From positions 1,674,001-1,738,000 of the forward strand of contig NC_017583.1 of NCBI RefSeq assembly GCF_000184345.1: 64,000 nucleotides of DNA, read 5' to 3'. Both the position numbers and the translations under genes were made by a program. The stretch is from Spirochaeta thermophila DSM 6578 (lineage in GTDB: Bacteria; Spirochaetota; Spirochaetia; Winmispirales; Winmispiraceae). The notes beneath the pieces were generated by a model. The model did no database searches. It was given only the letters and a program-made list of their open reading frames with translations, and had not been told where the DNA came from. Every line of letters starts with the position of its first letter. Position 1 is the first letter of the stretch. Shown here piece after piece: positions 15,247 to 25,887 of the stretch.

Positions 15247-17001
15247 TTATTTGAGATAGAGCGGCCTAGCTGTATAGTGCGTGTGAAGGTATTTATGGGC
15301 CTTCTCGCTGAGCGGTTTTTCGAGGAACTCCTCATACAGCTGCTTGATGGCAGGGTTCTGGTGTGAGCACCGGTACACCGAACGCTCGTCGTCGGTGTAG
15401 ATCCCTGCAGCCCGCTTGGCCCTGATTTCGTCGGTGGCGCCATACGGCTGACCCCCGCCCCCCACACATCCGCCGCGACAGGCCATCACCTCGATGAAGT
15501 GATAGGGTGGTTCCTTGCCTTCTTGCAAGGCCTGCTTCACCCTATCGAGCACGTACTGGACGTTGGAGATGGAGTGGGCCACCGCGATCCGCACCTGCGT
15601 GCCATCGATATCCAGAGTGGCCTCCTTCACACCGTCGAGTCCTCTGATGGGAGTGTACTCCACCTTCTCCATCTCCTTGCCGGTGATGAAGTAGTACACA
15701 GTACGAACAGCCGCCTCCATCACACCTCCGGTGACGCCGAAGATGGTACCGGCACCGGTGTATATCCCCAGCGGTTGATCCGCCTCTTCATCCGGGAGGT
15801 TGTGGAAGTCGATACCGGCCGACTTGATCATACGGGCGAGTTCCCGGGTAGTGATGGAGGCATCCTGATCCTTGTAACCCGAAGAGTACATGTTCTCGTC
15901 ACGTTCGATCTCGTACTTCTTACTGGTACAGGGCATCACCGAGACCATGAAGATCTTGGAAGGATCGATCCCCTTCTTCTGGGCGTAGTAGGTCTTCACC
16001 ATGGCGGCGAGCATCATCTGCGGCGACTTGGCCGAAGAGAAGTGGGGGATCATCTCGGGGTAGTACTTCTCAAGGTAGTCCACCCACGAGGGACAACACG
16101 TGGTGATGAGGGGAATGGGGCCCTTGCCGTGGGCGAATCGCTCCACGAACTCGCTCGCCTCCTCCATGATGGTGAGGTCGGCGGCGAAATTGGTATCAAA
16201 GATCGCGTCAAACCCAAGTCGTCGAAGTGCGGCATAGGTCTTACCGGTGAGAAGTGTGCCGGGCTCGTAGCCAAAGGCCTCCCCTATGGCCACGCGCACC
16301 GCAGGAGCGATCTGTACCACGGTGTGGATCTCGGGATCCATGATGGCTTCCCACACCTTCCGGGTGTCGTCCTTCTCGTAGATGGCTCCGACGGGACAGT
16401 GGGCCGAGCACTGGCCGCACTTGATACACGGGCTGTCGTTGAGCGCGATGTCGCCCGCCGGAGCGATACGGGTACCGTCGCCCCTTCCCAGAAACTCGAG
16501 CGCCCACACGTTCTGCATGCTCTGACACACGTTCACACACCTGCCGCACTTCACACACTTCGAAGGATCGAGCACGATGGAGGGGGTGGAGCTGTCCTTG
16601 GGCAGATCAACGATGTTCTTCTCGTAGGGCTGCTCCCGTACTCCGAACTCGGCGGCAAGGCGCTGCAGTTCGCAGTTCTGGTTACGCGGACAGTAGAGAC
16701 AATCATCGGGATGGGTGGAGAGGATGAGCTCGATGACGGTCTTTCTCACCTGAACGATCTCAGGATCGTGAGTGATCACCTCCATCCCATCCTCGAGCGG
16801 TGTGGCACAGGCCCTGAGCATCTTGGGGCTGCCCGCCACCTTCACCACACAGATACCACACGCACCCCACGCAGGCAGGTCGGGATGGTGACAGAGGGTA
16901 GGGATCTTCACCTGTGTCTGCTTTGCTGCATCGAGGATGCTCGTGCCCTCAGGCACCTCTACCTGTATGCCGTTTATCGTAGCCGTTATCGTCTTCATCA
17001 T
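15247..17001 (-). CDS. hydA: [FeFe] hydrogenase catalytic subunit (NADH-linked, HydA)
   Basis: A 584-residue cytosolic subunit that makes or oxidises H2 at the H-cluster. Domains in order: N-terminal 2Fe-2S (C37, C48, C51, C65), a His-ligated 4Fe-4S (H97, C101, C104, C110), two ferredoxin clusters (C149/152/155/159 and C192/195/198/202), then the H domain. L1 is TTCCPSW (C302 proton relay, C303 ligand), L2 is MPCTSKK (C358), and L3 is MACRGGCVGGGGQP (C508, C512). All catalytic residues are present. It is last in the hydC-HATPase-ferredoxin-like-hydB-hydA operon and matches the bifurcating or NADH-dependent trimeric group. The ATG pair at 17001/16998 follows AAGGGGG. Confidence 0.97.
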   Translation of the reverse strand: MMKTITATINGIQVEVPEGTSILDAAKQTQVKIPTLCHHPDLPAWGACGICVVKVAGSPKMLRACATPLEDGMEVITHDPEIVQVRKTVIELILSTHPDDCLYCPRNQNCELQRLAAEFGVREQPYEKNIVDLPKDSSTPSIVLDPSKCVKCGRCVNVCQSMQNVWALEFLGRGDGTRIAPAGDIALNDSPCIKCGQCSAHCPVGAIYEKDDTRKVWEAIMDPEIHTVVQIAPAVRVAIGEAFGYEPGTLLTGKTYAALRRLGFDAIFDTNFAADLTIMEEASEFVERFAHGKGPIPLITTCCPSWVDYLEKYYPEMIPHFSSAKSPQMMLAAMVKTYYAQKKGIDPSKIFMVSVMPCTSKKYEIERDENMYSSGYKDQDASITTRELARMIKSAGIDFHNLPDEEADQPLGIYTGAGTIFGVTGGVMEAAVRTVYYFITGKEMEKVEYTPIRGLDGVKEATLDIDGTQVRIAVAHSISNVQYVLDRVKQALQEGKEPPYHFIEVMACRGGCVGGGGQPYGATDEIRAKRAAGIYTDDERSVYRCSHQNPAIKQLYEEFLEKPLSEKAHKYLHTHYTARPLYLK

Positions 17002-17008
17002 GGCCCCC

Positions 17009-18796
17009 TTAGCGTTTCTCTATGGCGTTGAACTTACAGGCCTCGTAACAGGCACCGCACTTGATACACTTGTCCTGATCGATCACGTGGGGCTGTTTCC
17101 GCTCCCCGCTTATGGCATTCACCGGACACCTACGGGCACATACGCCACAACCTATACACTTGTCGGGAAGGATGGTGTAGGTGACCAGCTCCACACACTT
17201 GCCGGTGGGGCACCGCTTCTCCACGATGTGGGCCCGATACTCGTCCTCGAAATAGTGCAAGGTGGAGAGCACAGGGTTGGGTGCGGTCTGGCCCAGACCA
17301 CAGAGCGAGGCCCGTTTCATCGCGTGGGAGATCTCCTTGATCTTGTCTATGTCCTCGAGAGTGCCCTTGCCCTTGGAGATGCGGTCGAGGATGTTGTAGA
17401 GCTTGCGGCCGCCCACCCGACACGGAGCACACTTGCCGCACGACTCGTCCACCGTGAAGCCGAGGTAGAATTTGGCCACGTTCACCATACAGTCGTCTTC
17501 GTCCATCACGATCATACCGCCCGAGCCCATAATGGAACCGAGCTTCTGGAGGTTCTCGTAGTCGATGGGCGTATCGAGGTACTCTTCGGGAATCACACCT
17601 CCCGAGGGACCACCGGTCTGCACGGCCTTGAACTTCTTGCCATTGGGGATGCCTCCCCCAATGTTGAAGACGATGTCCCTCAGGGTGGTGCCCATGGGGA
17701 CCTCAACGAGCCCCGAGTTGTTCACCTTACCGGTGAGCGCAAAGACTTTGGTTCCCTTGGATGTCTCTGTACCGATCTTCGCGAACCAGTCACCACCCCT
17801 CAGGATGATCACCGGGATGTTCGCAAGGGTCTCCACGTTGTTGATCACCGTGGGCTTGCCCCACAATCCCTTCACCGCAGGGAACGGTGGCCTTGGCCTG
17901 GGCGTACCCCTGGAACCTTCGATGGAGGCGAGAAGGGCGGTCTCCTCACCACAGACAAAGGCCCCTGCACCGAGCCTGATCTCGATGTCGAAAGAGAACC
18001 CGCTCCCCAGGATGTCCTCTCCGAGGAGGCCCAGCTCTCTCGCCTGTTCGATGGCGATGTTGAGCCTGCGGATGGCGAGCGGATACTCGGCGCGCACGTA
18101 GATATATCCCTTGTGGGCCTCCACCGTCTTACCTGCGATGATCATCGCCTCGAGCACGGAGTGCGGGTCTCCCTCGAGCACGCTCCGGTCCATGTAGGCA
18201 CCGGGGTCTCCCTCATCCGCGTTACAGACCACGTACTTCACATCGTCCTTCGCCTGCATGGTGAAGAGCCACTTCCGCCAGGTGGGGAATCCTGCTCCAC
18301 CCCGACCTCTGAGACCCGACTTCTTGAGCTCCTCGATCACCTCATCGGGACTCATCTCGAGAAGCACTTTCTCGAGGGCCGCATACCCGTCACGGGCGAT
18401 GTACTCGTTGATATCCTCGGGGTTGATGAACCCGCAGTTTCGCAACACCACCCTGAACTGCTTCTGATAGAAGTCGATATCGTCGACCCGTGCGAACTCC
18501 TTGCTCTGCTCCTTGTTGTAGAGGAGACGGGTGACCGGTCGCCCCTTTATGAGGTGCTCCTTGACGATCTCCTCTGCATCCTCCGGCTTCACCTGCACGT
18601 AGAAGGACTCCTCGGGGAGCACCTTCACGATCGGTCCCTGCTCGCAGAACCCGAAACATCCTGTCTTGACGACCTGGATATCGGACGAAATCCCTTCTTT
18701 CTCGAGGAGCCCGAGAAGATTCCGATACACCTGGTCGGACTTGTTCGACTCACACCCGGTACCGCCACATATGAGCACGTACTGCTTGTATGCCAT
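17009..18796 (-). CDS. hydB: NADH-binding hydrogenase subunit (HydB, NuoF-like)
   Basis: A 595-residue flavoprotein subunit carrying FMN and NADH sites. Residues 1-95 are a thioredoxin-like 2Fe-2S domain (C10, C15, C47, C51). The FMN/NAD region has SGLRGRGGAGFPTWRKW and the acidic NADEGDPGAYMDR. The N3-type 4Fe-4S site is ESCGKCAPC with C453, C456, C459 and C499. Two C-terminal 4Fe-4S clusters use C547/550/553/557 and C577/580/583/587. It passes electrons between NADH and HydA. It lies seven bases upstream of hydA. Confidence 0.97.
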   Translation of the reverse strand: MAYKQYVLICGGTGCESNKSDQVYRNLLGLLEKEGISSDIQVVKTGCFGFCEQGPIVKVLPEESFYVQVKPEDAEEIVKEHLIKGRPVTRLLYNKEQSKEFARVDDIDFYQKQFRVVLRNCGFINPEDINEYIARDGYAALEKVLLEMSPDEVIEELKKSGLRGRGGAGFPTWRKWLFTMQAKDDVKYVVCNADEGDPGAYMDRSVLEGDPHSVLEAMIIAGKTVEAHKGYIYVRAEYPLAIRRLNIAIEQARELGLLGEDILGSGFSFDIEIRLGAGAFVCGEETALLASIEGSRGTPRPRPPFPAVKGLWGKPTVINNVETLANIPVIILRGGDWFAKIGTETSKGTKVFALTGKVNNSGLVEVPMGTTLRDIVFNIGGGIPNGKKFKAVQTGGPSGGVIPEEYLDTPIDYENLQKLGSIMGSGGMIVMDEDDCMVNVAKFYLGFTVDESCGKCAPCRVGGRKLYNILDRISKGKGTLEDIDKIKEISHAMKRASLCGLGQTAPNPVLSTLHYFEDEYRAHIVEKRCPTGKCVELVTYTILPDKCIGCGVCARRCPVNAISGERKQPHVIDQDKCIKCGACYEACKFNAIEKR

Positions 18797-18805
18797 GCGT
18801 CCCTC

Positions 18806-19204
18806 CTATTCCTCTTTGCTCACGATATCAGCTGCGGGCCTGTCGTAGACGTGATTCTCCACCAGTTTTCCGCCAAGGATGTGGTCTTCCACGATACGCC
18901 GCGCCACATCAGGGGTGACCTTACCGTAGATCACACGCGGCATGCCGGGCATGATCACCTCCACGGTGGGCTCGGCATAATCGAGCCCGAAACCACCTAC
19001 CTGACGAACCGCCACGTTGGTGAGCCCTTTCTCCTCGATGATCCTCAAGAAGGCATCGAGCGTCTCCTTGGCCCCTGCAGCGATCCCACTGGTTCCCATA
19101 CCGACCACGATGTGGATCTCCTTATTGTCGGGATCGCGCATCTCAAGGAGCCGCTTCTTCTCTTCCCGAAGCTTCCTGAGCTGTTCCAGCGTCATCTTTC
19201 CCAT
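18806..19204 (-). CDS. ferredoxin-like thioredoxin-fold protein lacking all cysteines
   Basis: A 132-residue protein. It has the sequence frame of the small 2Fe-2S protein usually found in this operon (VVGMGTxGIAAGAKETLDAF, then a TGCxGLCxxEP-like site and GKVTPDVARRIVEDHILGG). The cluster ligands are gone: GTSGIAAGA replaces GTCGIAAGA, and QVGGFGLDYAEP replaces QTGCIGLCxxEP. The whole protein has no cysteine, so it cannot hold a 2Fe-2S cluster by this fold. The start at 19204 has AAGGAG six bases upstream and lies 62 bases inside the HATPase gene. A structural or regulatory role is more likely than electron transfer. Confidence 0.85.
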   Translation of the reverse strand: MGKMTLEQLRKLREEKKRLLEMRDPDNKEIHIVVGMGTSGIAAGAKETLDAFLRIIEEKGLTNVAVRQVGGFGLDYAEPTVEVIMPGMPRVIYGKVTPDVARRIVEDHILGGKLVENHVYDRPAADIVSKEE

Positions 19205-19766
19205 AGACATCTCCTTCACGTGAAGCGTTGAGGCACGAGCCTTCGAGCTCGTGCAAGAACCTGTCCAGCAGAAGGGCATGAGGTGCATACCAGAAGTCCC
19301 CGAGTTCATCCAGGAGCTCCCTCCTGGAGAGGGTGTACTCACCACCATCGCTCTCTCTCTGCACGAGAAGCTCGTAGTCCCCTTCGAAGGAGAGGGCTCC
19401 TCGCCACGTGCTCGCCAGGTCACCGATCGGAGGCGTGTCCACATGATCGAGCGGCATGCTGAAGCGTACCACCGTGCCCTTCCCCGGTTCACTCTCGATG
19501 GAGAGTCCGCCTCCGACCAAGTCGACCGTCTGTTTGAGGAAGGCGAGCCCCAGTCCCAGACGTCTGCCCGGGTGCTTTTTGCCATCGGTAAAAAAGGGGT
19601 CGAGCGCCCGCTCTTTCTCCTCAGGGGACATGCCCCTTCCATCATCCTTCACACGGACCGTACACCACCCTTCCCTGGTGGAACAGAACACCTCAATCGT
19701 ACGCGCTCCGGCTTCAAGCGAATTCTGAACGAGCTCGAGAATGAGATCGGAGAGCGTACGATGCAT
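19143..19766 (-). CDS. HATPase-domain protein of the hydrogenase operon
   Basis: A 207-residue cytosolic protein with a GHKL ATPase fold: N box LILELVQNSLEAGA, G1 box VKDDGRGMS, G2 region GRRLGLGLAFLKQTVDLVGG and GKGTVVRFSMPL. There is no histidine phosphoacceptor domain, so it is not a complete sensor kinase. Similar ATP-binding proteins recur between nuoE-like and nuoF-like genes in clostridial hyd operons. ATG at 19766 lies five bases after the hydC stop. The C-terminal 20 residues overlap the next gene, implying coupling. The role in hydrogenase control is unknown. Confidence 0.85.
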   Translation of the reverse strand: MHRTLSDLILELVQNSLEAGARTIEVFCSTREGWCTVRVKDDGRGMSPEEKERALDPFFTDGKKHPGRRLGLGLAFLKQTVDLVGGGLSIESEPGKGTVVRFSMPLDHVDTPPIGDLASTWRGALSFEGDYELLVQRESDGGEYTLSRRELLDELGDFWYAPHALLLDRFLHELEGSCLNASREGDVYGKDDAGTAQEASGREEAAP

Positions 19767-19771
19767 ACGTA

Positions 19772-20254
19772 CTATCCCTGTTCCCTGTACTTGGCAAGGA
19801 TGCCCGGAAGGTCGTCCTTGGTCACCTTGCCGTAGACCTCGCCGTCCACCATGAGTACCGGTGCGAGCCCGCAACACCCCAGACACCGAACCGCCTCGAA
19901 CGAGAAGAGCCCATCCTCGGTCGCGGTGTTCGGCCCCACACCCAGAAGGTCCTCCAGCTCTTTGAGGATGTCCTCGCCTCCCTTGAGGAAGCACGCAGTA
20001 CCTAGACACACCGAGATCCGATGCTTTCCGGGTTTACGGAGCTTGAAGAAGTGGTAGAACGTGATCACACCGTAGATCTTTGCGAGTGGTACATCGAGCA
20101 CCTTGGCGAGTTCCATGGCGATCTCCCGGGGAATATACCCGTAGATCTCCTGCGTTTTGTGGAGCACCATGATCAGATTCCCAGGCTTCTCCTTCCATTG
20201 ATCGATGAAGGACATAAGTTCCGGATGGAGCGTCACCTCTACTGTCTGAGCCAT
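19772..20254 (-). CDS. hydC: hydrogenase 2Fe-2S subunit (HydC, NuoE-like)
   Basis: A 160-residue protein: an N-terminal helical bundle with GYIPREIAMELAKVLDVPLAKIYGVITFYHFF, then a thioredoxin-like domain with 2Fe-2S ligands C83, C88, C124 and C128 (CLGTAC and CLGCC). It is the small electron-transfer subunit of the HydABC complex. The ATG at 20254 has AGGAGGG in front. It is the first gene of the leftward hyd operon, and a consensus promoter precedes it. Confidence 0.96.
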   Translation of the reverse strand: MAQTVEVTLHPELMSFIDQWKEKPGNLIMVLHKTQEIYGYIPREIAMELAKVLDVPLAKIYGVITFYHFFKLRKPGKHRISVCLGTACFLKGGEDILKELEDLLGVGPNTATEDGLFSFEAVRCLGCCGLAPVLMVDGEVYGKVTKDDLPGILAKYREQG

Positions 20255-20287
20255 GCACCCTCCTGTGTTTTTGTGGTGGTATGCTGT

Positions 20288-20316
20288 AGTATAGACAATA
20301 GGTGCATTAATATCAA
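20288..20316 (-). promoter_or_regulatory. hyd operon promoter
   Basis: Leftward TTGATA at 20311-20316, a 17-bp spacer and TATACT at 20288-20293. An imperfect palindrome ATTGATATTAAT covers the -35, and CAATAG is repeated at 20296 and 20314. Rex is encoded divergently and is the expected repressor, but the match to known Rex sites is weak. Confidence 0.7.
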
Positions 20317-20358
20317 TAGTCTTTTCTTTATTCAGGAATAATGGTAATATGAAACTCG

Positions 20359-21042
20359 ATGGATGCATTTAACGAGAAATCGATCACAAAAAACACTATC
20401 ACGAGGGCGTCGAGCTATCTCAGGGTGATCAAAAACCTCAGGTCCCTCGGGTTCGTGAGAGTCTATTCATCCAACCTTGCCGATGCGCTCGGCCTGACCC
20501 CCGCCGTGGTCCGCAAAGATTTTTCCGCCCTCGGCTTAGAGGGGAAAAAGAAGGGGGGGTACCTCATCGATGACCTCATCGCTCGCCTCGAAGACCTGCT
20601 CGGAGCACAGAAACCACGCAAGACAGTAGTGGTAGGGTGCGGAAGGATAGGCCGGGCCCTCATCGAATCTCAGGAGCTCCGTCGGGAAGGAATCCAGATC
20701 GTAGCAGGCTTCGATGTTGCACCACCCCCTCCTGACGAACAGGGTGAGGTCCCCATCTACCACGTGGATATGCTGCAATCATTCGTACAAAAAGAGGGTA
20801 TAAAGGTGGGCATTCTGGCCGTTCCTTCGCACGCAGCACTCGAGATGTTTCAGAGGATGCGCCTTGCAGGGATGCGGGGGTTTCTCAACTTCACAACGGT
20901 GAATCTCAAATGTCAGGAACAGTGCCCTCATGGATGCGAAGAGCAGTGTATCATTATCCAAATCAACATTGCGCTCAAACTTGAAAATCTCTTTCACATG
21001 GTGCACATTACAGAACACCATCCTGAACTTCTAAGGGAGTGA
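20359..21042 (+). CDS. rex: Rex-family NADH-responsive repressor with a Cx3Cx3Cx3C insert
   Basis: A 227-residue regulator. The winged helix (residues 5-80) has SSNLADALGLTPAVVRKDFSALG. The Rossmann domain has VVVGCGRIGRAL (residues 89-101), and the C-terminal swap helix is LKLENLFHMV. Rex senses the NADH/NAD+ ratio and represses fermentation and hydrogenase genes. After LNFTTVNLK there is CQEQCPHGCEEQC (C185, C189, C193, C197), where most Rex proteins have a short cysteine-free loop. There is no Shine-Dalgarno; a TAATAT hexamer at 20345-20350 lies eight bases before the ATG. It is divergent from hydC, with 104 bp between. Confidence 0.92.
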   Translation: MDAFNEKSITKNTITRASSYLRVIKNLRSLGFVRVYSSNLADALGLTPAVVRKDFSALGLEGKKKGGYLIDDLIARLEDLLGAQKPRKTVVVGCGRIGRALIESQELRREGIQIVAGFDVAPPPPDEQGEVPIYHVDMLQSFVQKEGIKVGILAVPSHAALEMFQRMRLAGMRGFLNFTTVNLKCQEQCPHGCEEQCIIIQINIALKLENLFHMVHITEHHPELLRE

Positions 21043-21083
21043 ACATAAGTCACAACCTCATACACATGCCTCAAGGAGGTATA

Positions 21084-21443
21084 ATGCGGCTTTCCGATAT
21101 AGTACGTGCCATACAAGGTTCACACGTCGCCGGTCCCTCACCTGAGTCGATCACCTGTGATGAAGTGATAGCGAGCGATCTCATGAGCGATGTACTCACG
21201 CATGAAGGAGAAGGCTTTCTGCTCATCACCGGCCTCGCCTCAGAACAGACCCTTCGTACCGCCCACATCGTGGGAGCTCCCGCGGTGATCCTGGTATGCG
21301 GGAAACCCGTCCAGCCCCGGATGAAGGCCCTCGCCGATGAATACGGGATCTGCCTCATCTCCACTCCTCTGCCCACGTTCGAGACCTGTGCGGTCATCGC
21401 CCGCATCAAGGAAGGTGCTTATGGATCAGGCGCCGCTGAGTGA
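21084..21443 (+). CDS. DRTGG-domain protein 1
   Basis: A 119-residue protein made up of one DRTGG-type alpha/beta domain, seen in SDLMSDVLTHEGEGFLLITGLASEQTLRTAHIVGAPAVILVCGK. AAGGAGG precedes the ATG at 21084, which is preferred to the ATG at 21039. The domain is probably a ligand-binding regulatory module. It overlaps the next gene by 23 bases. Paired DRTGG genes around a CBS-HATPase gene recur near [FeFe] hydrogenases in other anaerobes. Confidence 0.82.
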   Translation: MRLSDIVRAIQGSHVAGPSPESITCDEVIASDLMSDVLTHEGEGFLLITGLASEQTLRTAHIVGAPAVILVCGKPVQPRMKALADEYGICLISTPLPTFETCAVIARIKEGAYGSGAAE

Positions 21444-22380
21444 CATCCCTTCTCCCCGACTCCTCGAACTCATCTATACCCTCAAGGTGAGGGACGTGAT
21501 GACGCGGGAACTCATCACCGCCACTCCTGACGAATCCCTGCGTTCCATCCAGCACAAGATGAAAGAGAATCGCATCACCGGGGTCCCGGTGGTGCAGAAA
21601 AACCGTCTGGTGGGGATCGTGAGCATCGACGACATCATCACCGCCCTCGACAAGGGCTACATCGACGAACCGGCTGGTAGCTACATGACGAGAAACGTGG
21701 TGGTGCTGGAAGAGGACATGCCGCTCAGGTTCGCAATTTCTTATCTCGATAAGTACCACTACGGACGATTCCCGGTACTCGACAAGAAAGGAAGCCTCGT
21801 AGGCATCGTCACGAGCAGGGATATCATCACGAGCCTCCTCCTGCAGGCGAACCGAGCTCTCGAGCAGATGGAAGCAACCCTCTATAAGCGTTCCTACGAG
21901 GGACAGCCGCCGGAGGCGGGCTCATACACAAGGGAGTTCTACATCAGGCAGTACGACTTCGAACACGCAGGTACCGCTTCCACCCAGATAAAACGGATCC
22001 TCACCGAGCGAGGGTTCCCCCCCAAGGTGGTGAGGAGGGCGTCCATCGCCGCCTACGAGCTCGAGATGAATATCGTGGTGCACTCTGTAGGTGGGGTCCT
22101 CAGGCTTGTGCTCACCCCTCAGAGGGTGGAGATCACCGCTGAGGACTCAGGACCGGGTATCGAGGACATTGCCCTGGCCCTGCAGGAGGGCTACTCCACC
22201 GCAGCGGACTGGATACGTTCCCTCGGTTTCGGAGCAGGGATGGGACTTCCCAATACCAAACGCGTGGCGGATGAGTTCTCCATCCACTCCACCCCTGGAA
22301 AGGGGACCACCGTGAAGATCGCAATATCCTTCCAAGGAGGAGAAGATGCTCACTATAAAAAAAATCCCCCCTCTGGTTGA
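21421..22380 (+). CDS. CBS-pair protein with anti-sigma-type HATPase domain
   Basis: A 319-residue cytosolic protein. Two CBS motifs span residues about 18-140 (VRDVMTRELITATPDESL, GIVSIDDIITAL, YMTRNVVVLEEDMPL, GIVTSRDIITSLL), likely binding an adenine nucleotide. Residues about 185-305 form an RsbW/SpoIIAB-like HATPase (AAYELEMNIVVHS, EDSGPGI, GFGAGMGLPNTKRVADEF, GKGTTVKIAI). The ATG at 21421 has AAGGAAGG upstream. It may read energy state and act as a serine kinase or anti-sigma-like switch; no sigma or STAS partner is adjacent. It overlaps both neighbours. Confidence 0.87.
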   Translation: MDQAPLSDIPSPRLLELIYTLKVRDVMTRELITATPDESLRSIQHKMKENRITGVPVVQKNRLVGIVSIDDIITALDKGYIDEPAGSYMTRNVVVLEEDMPLRFAISYLDKYHYGRFPVLDKKGSLVGIVTSRDIITSLLLQANRALEQMEATLYKRSYEGQPPEAGSYTREFYIRQYDFEHAGTASTQIKRILTERGFPPKVVRRASIAAYELEMNIVVHSVGGVLRLVLTPQRVEITAEDSGPGIEDIALALQEGYSTAADWIRSLGFGAGMGLPNTKRVADEFSIHSTPGKGTTVKIAISFQGGEDAHYKKNPPSG

Positions 22381-22687
22381 GGCGGAGGAGGTTCTCATTC
22401 CCGATCCCGAGGTGGTGGTGAGGGCCGGATACACCTCCGACCTCCTGAGCGATGTGATGGCCAATGCCCCCGAAGACTCGATCCTCATCACCATCCAGGC
22501 GCACAAGAACACCATCGCGGTGGCCACCCTTACCGGCATCAGGGTGGTCCTCGTGTGCAACAGCAGGCCCATCCCTGAGGACATGGTGGAGGCCGCATCG
22601 CAGGAGGGGATCGCCATCCTGAGGACCAGCCGCAACCAGTTCGAGTGCTCCGGTATCCTCTACACGGCCCTTACCCAATCATCATGA
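22346..22687 (+). CDS. DRTGG-domain protein 2
   Basis: A 113-residue paralogue of the first DRTGG protein: VRAGYTSDLLSDVMANAPEDSILITIQAHKNTIAVATLTGIRVVLVC. AAGGAGGAG precedes its ATG inside the CBS-HATPase gene (35-base overlap). Its stop overlaps the PHP start (ATGA). Two different DRTGG proteins flanking one HATPase suggest a heteromeric switch, which is inference. Confidence 0.82.
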   Translation: MLTIKKIPPLVEAEEVLIPDPEVVVRAGYTSDLLSDVMANAPEDSILITIQAHKNTIAVATLTGIRVVLVCNSRPIPEDMVEAASQEGIAILRTSRNQFECSGILYTALTQSS

Positions 22688-23421
22688 GGTGGTGGAAGGC
22701 CGACCTTCACATCCATTCGTGTGTCTCACCGTGTGGGGACCTCTCCATGGGACCTCGCACCATCGTCCGGAGAGCGGCAGAGGAAGGACTTGCGCTCATC
22801 GCCCTCACCGACCACAACACCGCCCGCAATGCCCCTGCGGTCCATGCGTGCGGAGAAGAGGCAGGCCTCACCGTGCTTCCAGGCCTGGAACTCACCACCG
22901 CGGAGGAACTCCACATGCTTGCCATCTTCCCCACCCTTGAAGCGGCCCTCAAGTTCTCATCGTGGTGGGAAGCATCGCTCATCACCGTACCCCACAATCC
23001 CGAACGATACGGTGACCAACCGGTGGTCAATGCGGCCGAAGAGATCATCGAGGAGATCCCCTTCTCCCTCGCCTCGGCAAGCACGGTGGATCTCCACCGA
23101 GCCGTAAAGGCAGTGCACGAACAGGGAGGCCTCGCCATACCCTCCCACATAGACAGAGGTGCCTTCTCCTGCTACAGCCAGCTCGGCTTTCTCCCGGACG
23201 AGCCGTTCGATGCGGTCGAACTCTGGCACATTCCTCCTCAGCTCGAGACCCGTGGCTACCCCATCATCACCAATTCAGACGCCCACTTTCCCGATCGTAT
23301 CGGGGCGAGGTACTTTCTCTTTCAGGCTGTAGCACCTACATTTAGCGAGCTTAAAAAGGCGCTCACAGAAGGAAGGATACGGTGGGAGGTACGGGACCTC
23401 CCACCGGGAACATCCAGCTAA
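22684..23421 (+). CDS. PHP-domain phosphoesterase
   Basis: A 245-residue metal-dependent hydrolase fold: ADLHIHSCVSPCGD (H9, H11), LTDHNTARN, a mid-domain histidine in VPHNPE, SHIDRGAFS and the C-terminal NSDAHFPDR. These are the metal ligands of PHP phosphoesterases. It is last in the Rex-DRTGG-HATPase-DRTGG-PHP unit. The substrate is unknown; a nucleotide second messenger or phosphorylated regulator would fit the context. It converges with an outer-membrane gene, with stop codons overlapping. Confidence 0.88.
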   Translation: MRWWKADLHIHSCVSPCGDLSMGPRTIVRRAAEEGLALIALTDHNTARNAPAVHACGEEAGLTVLPGLELTTAEELHMLAIFPTLEAALKFSSWWEASLITVPHNPERYGDQPVVNAAEEIIEEIPFSLASASTVDLHRAVKAVHEQGGLAIPSHIDRGAFSCYSQLGFLPDEPFDAVELWHIPPQLETRGYPIITNSDAHFPDRIGARYFLFQAVAPTFSELKKALTEGRIRWEVRDLPPGTSS

Positions 23422-24731: not shown

Positions 24732-25598
24732 TCATGCGACCTCCTCTCGTTGCATCTGCGCCCAAAGGGCCTCATATTCCTCAGGGCTCCTGTACCCCAG
24801 CGCACTGTGGATATAGTGCTGGTTGTACTCCTCCGCCCATCCCCTCACTGCCTCCTCCAGCTCCCCCACGTGTTCCCACTCCCGCAGCCACAACAGCTCC
24901 TCCTTCATCGTCCGTATCATCCGCTCCGTGTCCGCATTCCCCTTCGGATTGTTGTAGCTCGTGAACACCTGTTCGATCCCCAATACCTCCATCGCCTTCA
25001 TGAACGACCGGCTCAACGGTTGGCTCCCGTTGTCACTCACCAGCCGAAGCCCTCTCCCCCTCACCCCCTCGGGAAACTCCCGCTCCACCGCCATCTCCAT
25101 CGCCGCACACCACTCCTCACTCCTCCCCCTCACCGACACCTTCCACCCCACCAGCTTCTTCGTGTACCAGTCAAGTACGATCACGAGATAGACCCATCCT
25201 ATCCCTTTCACCAGCACCTTCGTCATGTCGATCCCCCACCACTCCCTCGGTCTCCTCGCCACCGGCTTCCCTCGCCCACTCCCACGTCTCGCTTTCTTCT
25301 TCTCCCGTCTACACATAAGCCCCGCACCCTTCATAAGTCCTCTCACCCGCTTCTCGCTCACCTCCTCCCCCTCCCGCCTCCTCAACCACCACGCCACCCG
25401 CCTGTACCCCCAGTACGGATGCTCCCCCACAAGATCCCTGATCTTCTCCATAAGCCGCCCATCGTCCCTCTCCTTCTCCTCCCGCTTCTTCCCCACCTTC
25501 TGCCCCCTTTTCCTCCTCGCATAGTACCGGCTCCGACTCACGCCAAGTGCCTCACACGCATCCTTCACCCGGTACCCTTCCCCCACCAGCCGCTCCAC
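24732..25598 (-). CDS. IS3-family transposase OrfB (DDE integrase)
   Basis: A 288-residue integrase-like protein. It has an HTH_21 region (HPYWGYRRVAWWLRR) and the rve catalytic core with D in WGIDMTKV, D in LVSDNGSQPL and E in NADTERMIRTMKEE. The spacing between the second D and E is exactly 35 residues. It is normally made as an OrfAB fusion by frameshifting. Its frame relative to orfA is +1 rather than the usual -1 in this copy. GTG at 25598 is only a nominal start. Confidence 0.9.
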   Translation of the reverse strand: MERLVGEGYRVKDACEALGVSRSRYYARRKRGQKVGKKREEKERDDGRLMEKIRDLVGEHPYWGYRRVAWWLRRREGEEVSEKRVRGLMKGAGLMCRREKKKARRGSGRGKPVARRPREWWGIDMTKVLVKGIGWVYLVIVLDWYTKKLVGWKVSVRGRSEEWCAAMEMAVEREFPEGVRGRGLRLVSDNGSQPLSRSFMKAMEVLGIEQVFTSYNNPKGNADTERMIRTMKEELLWLREWEHVGELEEAVRGWAEEYNQHYIHSALGYRSPEEYEALWAQMQREEVA

Positions 25599-25887
25599 TG
25601 CCTCTATCTCCCCAACAGCTCCTTCGTTTTTTTAGTATCTCGATCTGGATCGCCTGCTTCGCTATGATCTTCTCAAGCTGCTCTATCTTCGCTCGATAGG
25701 TGTCCTTCTCCTTCCTGCCGTCTGCAAGGGCTCTCGTGCCCCCTTCCAGAAACCTGTCCCGCCATCGGTAGTACATCGTCTGGCTGATCTGGTGTTCCCG
25801 GCAGATCTCGGCGATCTGCCGTTCGCCTCGGAGTCCTTCCAGGACGATCGCAAGTTTCTCTTCAGTGGTCCATGTCCGCTTCTTCAT
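25552..25887 (-). CDS. IS3-family OrfA (HTH protein), tail out of frame
   Basis: A 111-residue protein. The first 80 residues are a typical OrfA: helix-turn-helix EICREHQISQTMYYRWRDRF and a leucine-zipper-like KIEQLEKIIAKQAIQIEILKK. After KK an A7 tract is followed by RRSCWGDRGSGAAGGG, which is the out-of-frame reading of the start of orfB. With one more A the frame would read KKTKELLGR and stop, the normal ending. This suggests a one-base loss in the slippery tract. Confidence 0.8.
   Translation of the reverse strand: MKKRTWTTEEKLAIVLEGLRGERQIAEICREHQISQTMYYRWRDRFLEGGTRALADGRKEKDTYRAKIEQLEKIIAKQAIQIEILKKRRSCWGDRGSGAAGGGRVPGEGCV

Follow-up and report, generated by a model that had tools for sequence, protein, structure and literature searches.

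We examined a 64,000-nucleotide stretch of Spirochaeta thermophila DSM 6578 (NC_017583.1, positions 1,674,001 to 1,738,000; hereafter the window), where five genes on the (+) strand at 20359-23421 (rex, DRTGG-a, CBS-kinase, DRTGG-b and php) are divergent from a (-) strand [FeFe] hydrogenase operon, hydC-HATPase-ferredoxin-like-hydB-hydA. We propose that a kinase-centred, partner-switching-like cassette controls HydBC-type NAD-linked enzymes and takes its input from either an H2 sensor or a CBS adenylate sensor, and we give this proposal about an even chance of being correct.

According to the proposed mechanism, the CBS pair would sense an adenine nucleotide and set the state of a SpoIIAB/RsbW-like kinase, which would bind and probably phosphorylate two DRTGG proteins, placed where classical partner switching has its STAS antagonists. 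The PHP enzyme would hydrolyse a phosphoester belonging to the circuit, and the cassette's output would adjust HydABC activity or expression. In Clostridia, the kinase would receive its input from a group D sensory hydrogenase (HydS) encoded right after the kinase gene; in the window's lineage this slot is empty, and the kinase-fused CBS pair would be the input. The controlled enzymes would be HydBC-type and NAD-linked, and mostly electron-bifurcating.

Results

The order DRTGG-a, CBS-kinase, DRTGG-b, PHP is repeated around Spirochaetota relatives and, without the CBS pair, in Clostridia; the gene set at the window is therefore not a chance arrangement. We searched for the CBS-kinase in 198 Spirochaetota genomes and found a full-length relative in 38. 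We then aligned the kinase domain by itself (23 rows), scanned this alignment against one genome per species and examined the 80 best loci, mostly from Clostridia. Their order is nearly fixed: DRTGG-a, kinase, a HydS of 430 residues, DRTGG-b, PHP, HydC, a stand-alone GHKL ATPase (HATP2), a thioredoxin-fold ferredoxin-like protein (FdL), HydB and HydA, with variants where HydC has moved to the front or the hyd operon is inverted. Including loci on contigs that end early, HydS is a neighbour in 79 of the 80, DRTGG-a in 74, PHP in 66, DRTGG-b in 63, HydC in 56, HATP2 in 54 and HydB in 47. At the window, a DRTGG gene likewise stands on each side of the kinase gene, php follows, and a hydC-HATP2-FdL-hydB-hydA operon adjoins.

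Because the 80 best loci had been ranked by likeness to the HydS-type kinase, we used a second sample of 196 Clostridia genomes not picked by neighbourhood, with FdL, a small gene specific to the hyd operon, as the operon marker. Kinase and FdL occur together in 94 of these genomes, the kinase alone in 4, FdL alone in 15 and neither in 83 (p 8e-34); FdL lies at most 12 kb from 62 of 100 clostridial kinases, many contigs being short. Across the 198 Spirochaetota genomes, the CBS-kinase and a close FdL are both present in 26, with 12 having the kinase only, 3 FdL only and 157 neither (p 3e-20); counted by genus, the same four classes hold 19, 6, 2 and 77 (p 1e-13). These p-values correct only partly for shared descent. 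The original prediction had staked itself on a conserved hydrogenase linkage outside this genome, and the linkage held strongly in both samples. We also sought a common neighbour for the stand-alone CBS cassettes and rejected it, their neighbours being varied (RseC-like, HAD hydrolase, integrase, MgtE and others).

We found that the two inputs exclude one another. The clostridial hydrogenase-like neighbour has Fer4 and Fe_hyd_lg_C domains and a C-terminal FeS motif, without PAS, and we assign it to the group D (M2e) HydS proteins because this make-up fits their published description (PMC8163306). Often, the Spirochaetota kinase lacks HydS and has an N-terminal CBS pair. Among 133 kinases in all, HydS lies within 2.6 kb of none of 37 CBS kinases, compared to 81 of 87 kinases with neither CBS nor fusions (p 1e-25). 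Of the six kinases with neither CBS nor HydS, some have an explanation: at L107 and L127 the contig stops within the gene or close to it, at L072 the reading frame is broken, and at L158 HydS is displaced. No group D HydS is encoded directly 3' of the window kinase, and the genome's five Fe_hyd_lg_C genes are either hydA or located elsewhere. Some genomes carry both kinds of kinase at separate loci (e.g. G165, G197, G146).

In the kinase tree, 22 CBS kinases closely related to the window protein group in one supported clade (98/93), which adjoins the clade of HydS-linked kinases (100/84); the remaining CBS kinases branch deeper. Judged from gene content and the tree, the sensor input of the kinase was exchanged between HydS and CBS, and in the window's lineage the CBS pair appears to stand in for the HydS input. 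It had been noted that similar sets occur near clostridial hydrogenases, as they do, and that no defined function was known for them; the latter needs revision, as they contain a group D HydS, for which a role in sensing H2 has been proposed before. Separately, at locus L051 (7060-9144) the position that HydS has in other cassettes, after CBS-kinase and before DRTGG-b, is taken by a signalling protein of about 690 residues, of the methyl-accepting chemotaxis protein type. A protein of about 690 residues is likewise placed at L054 (7223-9298), and L055 has the same gap.

The kinase, CBS and PHP motifs of the cassette proteins are intact. The reading frames of DRTGG-a, CBS-kinase, DRTGG-b and php overlap one another, and hence these genes are probably translated as a unit; gene starts in the (+) unit were chosen from ribosome-binding sites and homologue ends. 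The CBS-kinase gene (21421..22380, +) encodes a CBS pair (PF00571, 8.7e-32) followed by a SpoIIAB/RsbW-like GHKL serine-kinase domain (PF02518/PF13581, HATPase_c/HATPase_c_2). The kinase domain (21937..22338, +) has the GHKL fold, the N-box YELEMNIVVH with the catalytic Glu and Asn, and intact G-boxes, DSGPGI and STA...RSLGFGAGMGLPN, as do SpoIIAB/RsbW kinases. Across 133 relatives there is little or no variation at the E, E and N positions of the N-box or in the G-boxes, as in SpoIIAB, which is also the nearest solved fold.

This kinship also suits a different account, in which the kinase acts as anti-sigma factor on a sigma factor whose gene lies in another part of the genome, the DRTGG proteins are its antagonists and distant SpoIIE phosphatases provide the reset. 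The genome has four SpoIIE-type phosphatases, one of them in an hfs-type operon beside a sensory hydrogenase; however, we met neither a STAS nor a sigma-factor gene in the conserved cassette loci, and we regard this account as improbable.

The proposed adenylate input rests on the CBS pair (21487..21846, +; about residues 51-170 of the 347-residue frame). In known CBS proteins, the motif G-h-x-S/T-x-x-D holds the adenosine ribose and phosphate. Both window repeats have it (GIVSIDD and GIVTSRD), and in 37 CBS kinases its S/T and D are conserved at 95 and 97% in the first repeat and at 95 and 76% in the second. The fold neighbours of the window pair are CBS pairs that bind AMP, ADP, ATP, S-adenosylmethionine or c-di-AMP, and the window pair may bind a related ligand.

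The putative substrates are encoded on either side of the kinase. DRTGG-a (21084..21443, +; ribosome-binding site aaggagg), 5' of the kinase gene, is a small one-domain DRTGG protein (PF07085, 28.5 bits, above the cut-off), with homologues 5' of 115 kinases. The second DRTGG protein, DRTGG-b (22346..22687, +), is encoded 3' of the kinase; its PF07085 match (4e-4) is below the cut-off, and the assignment is backed by its position and by its own profile, which marks it as a conserved family in its own right. A single serine is invariant in each protein (100% of 115 and 100 sequences, respectively) and is a candidate phosphosite at best. The php gene (22684..23421, +) encodes a PHP-family metal-dependent phosphoesterase (PF02811, PF13263), whose metal ligands HxH, DH, E, H, H and DxH are conserved at 97-100% in 96 relatives. 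All five (+) strand genes, predicted earlier as overlapping or closely spaced and divergent from the hyd operon, are present, with families matched by profiles.

Natural fusions connect the same proteins. Kinase and DRTGG-b share one reading frame in 8 genomes of two families, and kinase and HydS do so at one locus (L080). Proteins that are fused in some genomes are usually in contact where they are encoded separately. We made AlphaFold models of a kinase-DRTGG-b fusion and of the window CBS-kinase. The fusion is modelled as a confident SpoIIAB-like kinase and a DRTGG fold (2IOJ, 3L2B), and the window protein as a CBS pair, a 29-residue helix and the kinase, with single domains confident.

We next describe the putative target. 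The window operon comprises hydC (19772..20254, -), a NuoE-like 2Fe-2S subunit (PF01257, 3e-47); HATP2 (19143..19766, -); FdL (18806..19204, -); hydB (17009..18796, -), a long form that has a thioredoxin-like part at its N-terminus and a 2x[4Fe-4S] part at its C-terminus (PF01512, PF10589, PF01257 and two Fer4); and hydA (15247..17001, -), an NADH-dependent [FeFe] hydrogenase of group A6 (NF040763, 827 bits, cut-off 765). A long HydB with a group A6 HydA is expected of bifurcating HydABC, and with HydC also present the window enzyme is predicted to be of this type, as expected of its family. HATP2 is the second GHKL ATPase foreseen within the hyd operon (PF02518, 6e-23); its best NCBIfam matches are histidine kinases, and it is histidine-kinase/MutL-like rather than RsbW-like.

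The ferredoxin-like label first given to FdL had to be corrected. The window protein has weak 2Fe-2S ferredoxin matches and no cysteine anywhere in its length, and therefore cannot hold a cysteine-ligated Fe-S cluster; it reads GMGTSGIAAGA and GGFGLD where relatives read GMGTCGIAAGA and GCxGxC. All Fe-S ligand cysteines have been lost from FdL in Winmispiraceae and in genomes G091 and G126 (seen at the window and at loci L038, L039, L040 and L049), while relatives keep three. As the gene is otherwise well conserved, FdL must serve without a cluster in these lineages.

In some Spirochaetota, the catalytic neighbour of the cassette is a different enzyme. At three loci (L088, L178, L179), the gene that follows HydC-FdL-HydB encodes the alpha subunit of an NAD-linked formate dehydrogenase, with domains Fer2, NADH-G and molybdopterin (TIGR01591), and at two (L060, L181) the HydB-like gene is part of an [NiFe] hydrogenase (PF00374, VhuA-like) about 8 kb from the cassette. 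Because the catalytic neighbour varies between [FeFe] hydrogenase, formate dehydrogenase and [NiFe] hydrogenase, the constant partner is the HydBC-type NAD-linked core and not the H-cluster. The predicted switch controlling hydrogenase thus keeps its linkage to hyd genes and loses hydrogenase as its sole target. We tentatively extend the proposal to one kinase-DRTGG module that would control the HydBC core of these enzymes across phyla with interchangeable sensors, the kinase being the missing partner of group D HydS, and judge the chances of this wider claim to be slightly below even. In this sensor exchange, an H-cluster protein would read H2 and a CBS pair would read energy charge.

A constant HydBC core would also suit direct binding, in which the kinase, the DRTGG proteins, PHP and HATP2 bind HydBC and gate its flavin or bifurcation activity, or its assembly, through ATPase-driven binding and not phosphorylation. 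In most clostridial loci the enzyme operon includes HATP2 and FdL, and the cassette has no conserved transcription factor, as such binding would have it. However, the Thermotoga HydABC was published as a three-subunit enzyme (PMC9499530), and the kinase groups with SpoIIAB and keeps its catalytic Glu and Asn. We consider direct binding unlikely.

The remaining gene of the (+) unit, rex (20359..21042, +), encodes a redox-sensing repressor (NF003996, 185 bits, cut-off 138); with those at 920478 and 170137, the genome's Rex-family genes number three. Each of the three Winmispiraceae genomes has rex immediately between the cassette and the hyd operon, an arrangement that would suit Rex as the real hyd regulator, with the four downstream genes merely co-transcribed and of unrelated general function. 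We find this very improbable, as the four-gene set is kept without rex in dozens of genera; beyond the three Winmispiraceae genomes, rex adjoins the cassette at a single clostridial locus (L162). The hydC-rex intergenic region common to both units (20255..20358) has a conserved AT-rich block in a three-genome alignment. The canonical Rex operator TTGTTAA-N4-TTAACAA was not found in this region, where a diverged operator is possible, and matches across the single-contig, 2,560,222-base genome (8, compared to 13 in a reversed control) are not enriched. Rex control of the hyd operon is possible but unsupported, and rex is best read as an add-on to the cassette in Winmispiraceae. From the energy/redox switch originally predicted, with Rex as part of the module, the adenylate-sensing kinase remains plausible, given its nearest relative SpoIIAB and the conservation of both CBS motifs, and the Rex/redox arm is unsupported. 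A weak palindrome resembling the canonical Rex operator, with 3 mismatches (171086-171103 of the genome contig), lies near the third Rex gene (170137-170766), not the hyd-linked one.

The genome holds other hydrogenase loci. An hfs-type operon at about 1420-1425 kb (L091:8486-13248) encodes a 574-residue sensory hydrogenase-like protein with a probable PAS C-terminus, a SpoIIE-family phosphatase, a small NuoE-like piece and a second hydrogenase of 532 residues; it could supply a phosphatase to the cassette circuit. A second HydC-HydB-HydA set (L090:7475-11053), in which HydB is short and has no Fe-S extensions, is possibly a non-bifurcating NADH hydrogenase. A 715-residue protein (L092:8302-10449) that joins an [FeFe] hydrogenase domain to a signalling domain of methyl-accepting chemotaxis proteins is a possible cytoplasmic H2 chemoreceptor. 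About 1.3 kb past php, the window also contains an IS3-type transposase pair (HTH_Tnp_1 and rve; 24732-25887, -).

Discussion

Several observations weigh against the kinase-centred mechanism. HydB lies within about 10 kb of only 11 of 37 CBS cassettes, in addition to the window; in other Spirochaetota, the cassette and the hyd unit are far apart within one genome (e.g. G026). Kinase-DRTGG fusions also occur in genomes without a convincing hydABC (e.g. G082, G122). The tree gives no order for CBS and HydS, as the CBS label needs 4-5 changes and long branches meet. Interdomain geometry is not confident in either AlphaFold model (predicted template modelling scores of 0.61 for the fusion and 0.50 for the window protein). 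The generic DRTGG protein 2IOJ has the same Met-Ser, weakening the invariant serine as a cassette-specific phosphosite, and PMC11172384 casts doubt on a role for DRTGG in regulating CBS pyrophosphatases.

If the mechanism holds, it offers a concrete partner set for group D HydS, a SpoIIAB-like kinase and two DRTGG proteins, with natural fusions. The HydS-linked cassette is carried by many gut and soil anaerobes, and the thermophile version would have its H2 sensor replaced by a CBS pair; ligand binding, phosphorylation and input exchange thereby become testable on small, soluble, heat-stable proteins. The gene linkages suggest that many anaerobes place their turnover of H2 and of formate under one common signalling device. 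In a literature search with most subscription journals outside its scope, DRTGG and hydrogenase appeared together in one paper only, in an unrelated context. Within that literature, the HydS form of the cassette is partly known; what appears new is the CBS form, together with the rule of exclusion, the natural fusions and the link to formate dehydrogenase.

The closest known system is TamHydS of Thermoanaerobacter mathranii, a putative sensory [FeFe] hydrogenase of group D (M2e) encoded upstream of HydABC (PMC8163306, PMC13104023). A histidine-kinase-like ATPase flanking group D HydS was noted in 2020 (PMC8163306). Both that paper and one of 2026 (PMC13104023) call the signalling route of group D HydS open, and the later one calls identifying its interaction partner critical. 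Judging by gene order, the kinase family beside HydS is the same, as is the hyd operon. In contrast, the window has no HydS in this slot and a kinase fused to a CBS pair, and its cassette, preceded by rex, diverges from hyd; the DRTGG and PHP members are not brought up in the text available.

In Thermoanaerobacterium, an hfs operon contains a group C HydS, and deletion of hfsA/B changes adhE and ethanol yield (PMC5707799). It likewise combines a sensory hydrogenase with serine phosphorylation parts, and the window's genome has such an operon (L091), but at a separate locus and without DRTGG or PHP. Compared to the SpoIIAB/RsbW anti-sigma serine kinases, the window kinase domain has the same fold, N-box and G-boxes, whereas the cassette has DRTGG proteins in place of a STAS substrate or sigma factor, and an extra CBS pair.

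CBS pyrophosphatases, in which CBS and DRTGG domains make up a regulatory insert, are inhibited by AMP and ADP and activated by ATP and Ap4A, and the proposed scheme is consistent with this (PMC11172384). In their CBS-DRTGG-CBS region (3L2B, 3L31), the two domain types jointly bind AMP or Ap4A, whereas in the window they are on separate polypeptides, with a kinase in place of the pyrophosphatase.

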